From positions 558,001-622,000 of the forward strand of contig NZ_CP053661.1 in NCBI RefSeq assembly GCF_013177315.1: 64,000 nucleotides of DNA. Reading direction: 5' to 3'. Source of the stretch: Thermoleptolyngbya sichuanensis A183 (GTDB lineage: Bacteria; Cyanobacteriota; Cyanobacteriia; Elainellales; Elainellaceae). The position numbers and the translations under genes are program-made. The number at the start of each line of letters is the position of its first letter. The stretch's first letter is position 1. The notes below the pieces were generated by a model, which was not told where the DNA came from, did not search any database, and saw nothing but the letters and a program-made list of their open reading frames with translations. Shown here piece after piece: positions 20,314 through 53,042 of this stretch.

Positions 20314-20405
20314 CAGGATTTACGCAGTTGGATGATTTCTGGTGGGCCTTGTCTGTGAGAAATCATCCAAAATCCGAAAAATTCATCGAAAGCGCGTAGG
20401 TTCTG
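20314..20405. mobile_element. Degenerate copy of the AGGACTTACGCA miniature element
   Basis: A decayed relative of the 93-bp palindromic element at 24037-24129: it starts AGGATTTACGCAGTTGGATG, has the central hairpin GATTTCT/AGAAATC, and ends in GCGCGTAGGTTCTG. The sequence has diverged and no target duplication remains. It sits between the convergent chlN and hepT genes and could fold as a terminator-like hairpin. Confidence 0.55.
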
Positions 20406-23931: not shown

Positions 23932-24036
23932 AACAGCCCTCCGCCTTCTAGTTAAACCTTCTAGTTAAAACAGTCCTCCGCCATGCTAGCGAGGATTGGA
24001 GGTGCAGCGACTGATTCATTACTGATTTATTACTGA

Positions 24037-24129
24037 TAGGACTTACGCACTTGCGATTGAAGTTCCTGGGTTTTGGACGATTTCTCGCGGGCGCAGCCCG
24101 CGAGAAATCGTCCAACTGCGTAAGTCCTA
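24037..24129. mobile_element. Intact miniature palindromic transposon (MITE-like)
   Basis: A 93-bp element bounded by inverted TAGGACTTACGCA/TGCGTAAGTCCTA and containing a long perfect hairpin (GGACGATTTCTCGCGGG against its complement). It is flanked by the direct 5-bp repeat ACTGA (24032-24036 and 24130-24134), a target-site duplication. A near-identical copy is at 33442-33533, and decayed copies lie at about 20314 and 52900. Non-coding; a parent transposase must act in trans. Confidence 0.88.
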
Positions 24130-24913
24130 ACTGATTCATTATTGGGTTCGTCCGCAGTGGCGGCTGCTCAAAGGCCCCACTCCAGCTATGGCAGTGGGGT
24201 TTTGCGATTCGGCATCCCGATATTTTGTGAGCAGGCTTTGTAAACCCCTGCTTTCTGCGATCCGATCGGGAAAAATCGCTGAGTGGAGCGGGCTTGATCC
24301 GTAGCCAATTCTGATAGGGAAATTGTCTCATCTGCTTCTAGGATGGCTGCCAATCTTGCAGGGGATTGATCAGCAGACCGGGACGCGCGATCGCCATTAA
24401 TAGGTTTTCCTGATCAAACCTGACCCAAGTGCATGGATCCCAGTCTAGAATTCAGGCTGAATTACCGCTTGGGCGATCGCTCCTGAGTTTAAAGACTGAC
24501 ATCCAAGCAGGCGATCGCAGCATTCTAGGATGGTTAGATCGGCTAGGCTGCTCGATTGATTAACAAACCTGATCGGTGCAACCTGGGGATAAGATCAAAT
24601 GCCAAATTAAACCAGGCTGCCATGACTTGAGAATTCTGGATTGGTTAGATAAACTGTGAGGGCGATCGCGCCTTGTGCCATTGGCAATTTTTTTGAATCA
24701 ATTCCGAATTGGGGATTGATTTTCTAAATCTGTTATATACTGATAACTCAAAACAAGTAACTTGAGCGGAATTTCAAGCCCGTTGGGTAAGCGCTTAGAT
24801 TATTAATTTATGCTTAAGCCTTATCGCGGTCGGGTTAATAGGGCACTCTCGCCTGAGTGTGTGAAGTCTCGATTTGAAATCTCCACTCGATGTTAGAGTT
24901 TGCCCTGGCATGA
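24130..24913. other. Long leader/spacer before sepF
   Basis: About 780 bp with no plausible gene. It is AT-richer than its surroundings. A possible -10 box TATACT lies at 24736-24741 (no good -35 partner), about 280 bp before sepF. A short hairpin CACTC/GAGTG lies near 24845. Several HIP1 sites are present at 24390-24530. Confidence 0.45.
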
Positions 24914-33326: not shown

Positions 33327-33441
33327 GCTCGTTCTGTCAATCCTCCCTAGAAAAGATAGCTGTAAAAAATAGCTGTAAATTGGCTAGAAACCCTCCAAGC
33401 CCTCAGATTCAAAATTCAAAAACGCCAATCCAAAAACGCCA

Positions 33442-33533
33442 CAGGACTGACGCACTTGCGATAAGTTTTCTGGGTTTTGGACGATTTCTCGCAGGCGCAG
33501 CCCGCGAGAAATCGTCCAACTGCGTAAGTCCTA
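33442..33533. mobile_element. Second intact copy of the miniature palindromic transposon
   Basis: A 92-bp copy of the 24037-24129 element, with one changed end base (CAGGACTGACGCA at the left, TGCGTAAGTCCTA at the right) and the same central hairpin. It is flanked by the direct repeat CGCCA (33437-33441 and 33534-33538). A different 5-bp duplication from the other copy shows independent insertion. Confidence 0.88.
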
Positions 33534-33559
33534 CGCCAATCCAAAATCCCAAATTACCC

Positions 33560-52804: not shown

Positions 52805-53042
52805 AAGGATTTTGGATTGGGACTTTTAGAGTTTGGATTGGGGCTTGTGCAAAAGATTTTGGATTGGGACTTTTAGATTTTGCATTGGGGCTTGTGCATT
52901 TGGAGGATTGCTCTGGGCGCAGCCCGCGAGAAATCCTCCAAGATTCAGAAAAATCATTGCAGGCGGGTCAGTCCTGGGGGACTTTGGATGGGGGATTTTG
53001 GAGGCGGGATTGGAATCGCGGCACGGGGTTTTGGCAGGGGCC
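52805..53042. repeat. TTTTGGATT arrays and a decayed miniature element
   Basis: The first 90 bp are three near-copies of GGATTGGGACTTTTAGA-type text. At about 52900-52974 lies a decayed copy of the palindromic element (GGGCGCAGCCCGCGAGAAAT centre, GGGTCAGTCCT right end). More TTTTGGATT-type text follows. Confidence 0.6.

Follow-up and report, generated by a model that had tools for sequence, protein, structure and literature searches.

What is the short palindromic element at positions 24037-24129 of this DNA, which transposase could have moved it, and why do the two arms of its hairpin match so closely? The window, that is, the whole stretch of 64,000 nucleotides analysed here, covers bases 558001-622000 of a 5.53-Mb genome assembled as a single contig. 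We find a well-confirmed element of a known kind, a MITE, newly placed here as an orphan of the ISAba11 group.

The element and its copies in the window

The first copy is 93 bp long (24037-24129, plus strand) and was recovered both by reading the sequence and by a profile search (E 2e-29). Its left terminal inverted repeat, TAGGACTTACGCA (24037-24049, plus strand), is the same as the ends of ISAba11-group elements, and its right counterpart is read directly on the minus strand at 24117-24129. The target duplication ACTGA flanks it on the left (24032-24036), as seen by direct reading and by the 5-bp rule that holds genome-wide, and on the right (24130-24134), also by direct reading. Folding and the covariation of the arms place the left arm of an internal hairpin, 19 nt, at 24073-24091 and the right arm at 24097-24115; they enclose the loop CGCAG at 24092-24096 (all on the plus strand), which close to half of the copies carry inverted, as CTGCG. 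In outline, a stem of 19 bp with a 5-nt loop lies between 13-bp terminal inverted repeats that read YAGGACTTACGCA, and the folding z-score is -10.9.

An earlier note made from the sequence alone had described a 93-bp element with terminal repeats of about 13 bp and an ACTGA duplication, which is right to the base. The second copy that it announced at 33442, with the different duplication CGCCA, is also present: it spans 92 bp (33442-33533, plus strand; profile E 8e-31), and CGCCA is read directly at 33437-33441 and at 33534-33538. The two decayed copies of that note are matched by profile hits on the minus strand at 20314-20405 (E 7e-19) and 52886-52976 (E 1e-15), and the profile search of the window returned exactly these four copies. 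A GAPDH gene, whose best protein relatives are cyanobacterial, neighbours the window element.

Copy number, target duplications and mobility

The genome contains 255 occurrences of the pattern GGACTTACGCA and five of the reversed control pattern. Pairs of such ends 55-80 bases apart are found at 74 places, with none for the control; this count rests on the exact pattern and is a lower bound for full-length copies, so that the earlier note's call for a count of copies and target sites can be answered with at least 74 full-length copies. For the duplications, we collected 105 end pairs with at most two mismatches per end, three of which are overlapping or composite calls, and took NAGGACT...AGTCCTN as the element boundary. 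An exact 5-bp duplication flanks 63 of the 105 copies (about 0.9 in shuffled flank pairs), and a duplication with one differing base flanks 16 more (about 2.5 when shuffled), which brings those with at most one mismatch to 79 of 105 against about 3.4. None of the other duplication lengths or offsets tested across the same 105 copies stands out. About 40% of the collected copies lack an exact duplication, which we attribute to their decay or rearrangement.

Identical copies stand at distant sites (1739169 and 3065373; 1927999 and 3270511). Only 19 of the 105 sites fall within open reading frames of at least 150 aa, whereas 73% of positions drawn at random from the flanks of the copies do, in a crude test of intergenic location that used this length threshold and no gene caller. 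A genome of the same genus (G001) holds 76 copies of the MITE. The eight intervals of G001 that match both full-length window copies and six others, some of them through one aligned flank, contain no visible element. Exact empty sites are not demonstrable there, because its intergenic DNA has diverged: the flanks were found, and the junctions are too different to show any.

A few copies are irregular. One, at about position 2501 of the locus 2558690-2563700, is interrupted near its right end by an insertion sequence whose end reads CTGACTGCCTGACACA and which belongs to a family with a 404-aa DDE transposase and about seven copies in the genome. Another site (about 2434-2542 of the locus 251057-256098) combines two or more truncated copies, and one 42-bp stretch of it lies between two exact ends. 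The 100-bp copies at 1202174 and 2214630 carry small internal tandem duplications (AATAGGTTTTCT and TCTCGCGGGCGCA, respectively), as expected from slippage at the hairpin.

Partner transposases in other genomes

In related genomes, inverted copies of the 12-mer of the MITE end stand 1.05-1.14 kb from each other and enclose transposases of 328-358 aa. These proteins carry DDE_Tnp_1/DDE_5 domains, and the three that we scanned score 363-416 bits with the NCBIfam profile NF049921 (transpos_IS701_2, 'IS701 family transposase'), whose cut-off is 250. Relatives turned up in 19 of the 60 genomes searched with the protein, and in many of these 19 intact elements share the ends of the MITE. The relatives on public plasmids include elements annotated as ISAba11 and ISCysp21. 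The ISAba11 of Acinetobacter has TAGGACTTACGCA at both ends with a CATAT duplication, and 5-bp repeats have been reported for it (PMC7885321). Across 18 insertion sequences that we tabulated, one of them 1.4 kb long, both 13-mers are intact in 16 and an exact 5-bp duplication is present in eight; the median identity of their transposases is 28%, leaving out one translated in the wrong frame.

ISAba11, ISCysp21 and several cyanobacterial members carry an HHEK motif instead of YREK; at the position of this motif another branch has CREK, one member (L293) CHEK and a further one (L236, from genome G018) AAEK. The group was reportedly described, with this motif, by Rieck and colleagues in 2012. The inner end of L236 most resembles that of the window MITE, and the end of this type of element continues with GTTGGA, as does one MITE end. 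This match is a hint, not proof, that an element of the L236 type may have been the source of the MITE. In a further genome (G009), several contigs stop inside an element whose end reads CAGGACTTACGCAGTTGGAAGAACG and which encodes a C-terminus sharing 69% identity with the L236 transposase; it is probably a multi-copy relative broken by the assembly.

The full-length transposase with matching terminal repeats that the earlier note proposed to look for thus exists in related genomes and was not found in this one. No protein of the genome, as represented by its single contig from which plasmids may be missing, matches the IS701_2-group transposase, and the best score of the NF049921 profile is 24 bits against the cut-off of 250. 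A search of G001, a draft that is 85% complete, gave no match to the partner protein either. With neither genome yielding a transposase of this group, present activity is unproven. Two other candidates for the partner were set aside: PF01609 transposases have 44 matches in the genome, and the 30 loci that we fetched lack MITE ends, and DUF4277/IS1634-type elements of the relatives have different ends.

As for vehicles, a search of phage sequences gave no match, and a search of plasmids gave one 73% match, in Pseudanabaena. Two contigs of a viral collection, IMGVR_UViG_2833015273_000006 (1973-2071) and IMGVR_UViG_3300027835_000056 (2099-2200), contain a pair of ends at the distance seen in the MITE, and judging from these sequences it is possible that such viral contigs represent a vehicle between hosts. 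No relatives of the partner transposase were found in viral contigs, and a literature search for the end sequence returned nothing relevant.

Evolution of the hairpin

We compared the 19 stem pairs in 95 distinct sequences. Double-compensated cells number 70, whereas 500 shuffles gave a mean of 14.6 and a maximum of 24, and 16 different perfect versions of the arms are present. Single stem mismatches divide almost evenly between GT (47) and AC/CA (about 41), which means that the RNA of neither strand is favoured. The loop reads CGCAG in 42 copies and is inverted to CTGCG in 35, and two copies that are identical outside the loop have it in opposite orientations.

When the loop is left out of tree building, 25 changes of its orientation are needed, as in shuffled data (mean 25.5). 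Although this tree is weak, with about 85 columns behind it, signal is recovered in the same way at control sites: two left-arm sites, an indel and the stem pair 42/72 require fewer changes than in all 200 shuffles. The stem pair 41/73 (CG/GC) shows no clustering on the tree, and the scatter of the CG-to-GC swap at these alignment columns would correspond to about 13 separate origins, which loop inversion does not explain. Mixed loop orientations are visible by eye in the MITE families of two other genomes (G025 and G011). A sequencing artefact is an unlikely source of the inversion, given that whole elements fit within one short read and that the mixture recurs in those two families. The simplest explanation of both the matched arms and the inverted loops is template switching during replication, which between the arms of a palindrome homogenises the arms and inverts spacers (PMC8604942, PMC8794818).

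Proposed mechanism and alternatives

Based on the above data, we propose with high confidence that the element belongs to the MITEs and that its 13-bp ends serve as recognition sites for an ISAba11-group DDE transposase. Its hairpin probably evolves largely by template switching. A transposase of this group would cut at the YAGGACTTACGCA ends, and the cut ends would be joined to the target with a 5-bp stagger, whose repair by the host would yield the 5-bp duplication. Such an enzyme, whether an earlier resident, encoded on a plasmid outside the assembly or brought by an incoming element, presumably moved the copies of this genome. Between moves, template switching in replication would copy one arm onto the other and invert the loop, a molecular step that we infer from the pattern of the copies. 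The match of both the 13-bp ends and the 5-bp duplication to ISAba11 makes the element a MITE of that group and, to the extent of the searches made, an orphan in this genome. The earlier reading of a mobile, non-autonomous family is borne out by copies with their own 5-bp duplications at unrelated sites, by identical copies far apart and by same-ended autonomous elements in relatives. The simplest view of the MITE is that of a genomic parasite tolerated between genes.

Selection on the hairpin as an RNA structure (a terminator, an mRNA-stabilising element or a small RNA), with arm covariation as ordinary compensatory evolution, would fit a strong hairpin with co-varying arms in mostly intergenic copies. 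We nevertheless consider this very unlikely: AC/CA mismatches are about as frequent as GT, no Rfam family scores above threshold, and such selection does not predict a loop that is inverted as a unit without correlation to genealogy. The terminator function suggested in the earlier note finds no support in the sequence, as an intrinsic terminator has a T-run after its GC-rich hairpin and none follows here on either strand, and the arms bear no strand-specific (RNA) constraint. Still harder to sustain, and in our judgement hardly credible, is a non-mobile repeat or a REP/REPIN-type palindrome spread by recombination, with no transposase acting on its ends. Short, palindromic, intergenic sequences in high copy number, in a genome where no transposase for them was found, are what one would then see, but REP/REPIN palindromes are spread by RAYTs without target duplication, while the duplications here are constantly 5 bp and DDE insertion sequences have exactly these ends.

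For the hairpin taken separately, gene conversion between oppositely paired copies, or cruciform cleavage followed by rejoining, could also yield flipped loops and matched arms, and we regard these routes as unlikely, though deserving of real consideration. About a hundred similar copies are available as potential donors, and either route may conceivably invert the loop while keeping the arms. Gene conversion, however, should also blur neighbouring sites, yet the left-arm sites and the indel keep a strong tree signal, and it is template switching that is documented as a cause of arm homogenisation together with spacer inversion (PMC8604942, PMC8794818). A more specific idea, to which we give little credence, is that the hairpin is inverted within transposition itself or by an element-specific processing of cruciforms, so that the loop orientation would be reset at each move; if true, this would add a step not reported before to the life cycle of ISAba11-group MITEs.

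The hundred or so copies of one hairpin on one chromosome form a natural record of the frequency of arm correction and loop flipping in a bacterium, and of all the findings it is the flipping of the loop that most deserves to be pursued. They also caution that co-varying stems alone are not evidence of a functional RNA. Moreover, an orphan cyanobacterial MITE family is now tied to a named transposase group. Between Acinetobacter and cyanobacteria the 13-bp end of this group hardly differs, whereas the transposases share only about 24-30% identity. With ends so conserved and enzymes so diverged, the idea that an incoming element could cross-mobilise such copies becomes open to test.

Comparison with known systems

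The closest known system is the ISAba11 group (ISAba11, ISCysp21; NF049921), which has the same 13-bp ends YAGGACTTACGCA and the same 5-bp target duplication. Its members encode a transposase, whereas the window MITE is 92-93 bp long, non-coding and built around an internal palindrome, in a genome that yielded none of the group's transposases. The element has the features of a MITE: short and non-coding, with inverted ends, a constant 5-bp duplication and an autonomous same-ended element, here in other genomes; a partner within the same genome, which is usual but not required for MITEs, was not found. Canonical IS701 elements are 1400-1550 bp long, with 4-bp duplications and ends of the form ---YACT-Y--YR ('IS4 family goes genomic', PMC2266710). 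The partner transposases are filed under IS701 by NCBI and share DDE domains with it, but their elements are mostly 1.05-1.14 kb long with 5-bp duplications and YAGGACTTACGCA ends.

Other cyanobacterial MITEs (Nezha; those of Anabaena sp. 90, PMC3542288, and of Microcystis, PMC11448079) are likewise short, non-coding, mostly intergenic and multicopy, with inverted ends and stem-loops. Those of Anabaena sp. 90 also have no matching insertion sequence in their own genome (PMC3542288), while a 187-nt MITE of Microcystis differs from the window MITE in its ISL3-matching ends and 8-bp duplications (PMC11448079). MITEs of other genera (G025, G011 and G026) share its 12-13-bp ends and are of almost equal length, with unrelated palindromes inside, and this comparison of sequences suggests that the ends and a hairpin, rather than a particular interior, may be what is kept across the group. 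Finally, template switching at quasipalindromes produces the same arm homogenisation and the same inversion of the loop, or spacer (PMC8604942, PMC8794818); unlike those cases, the present one offers about a hundred mobile copies within one bacterial genome, with the two loop orientations at similar frequencies.
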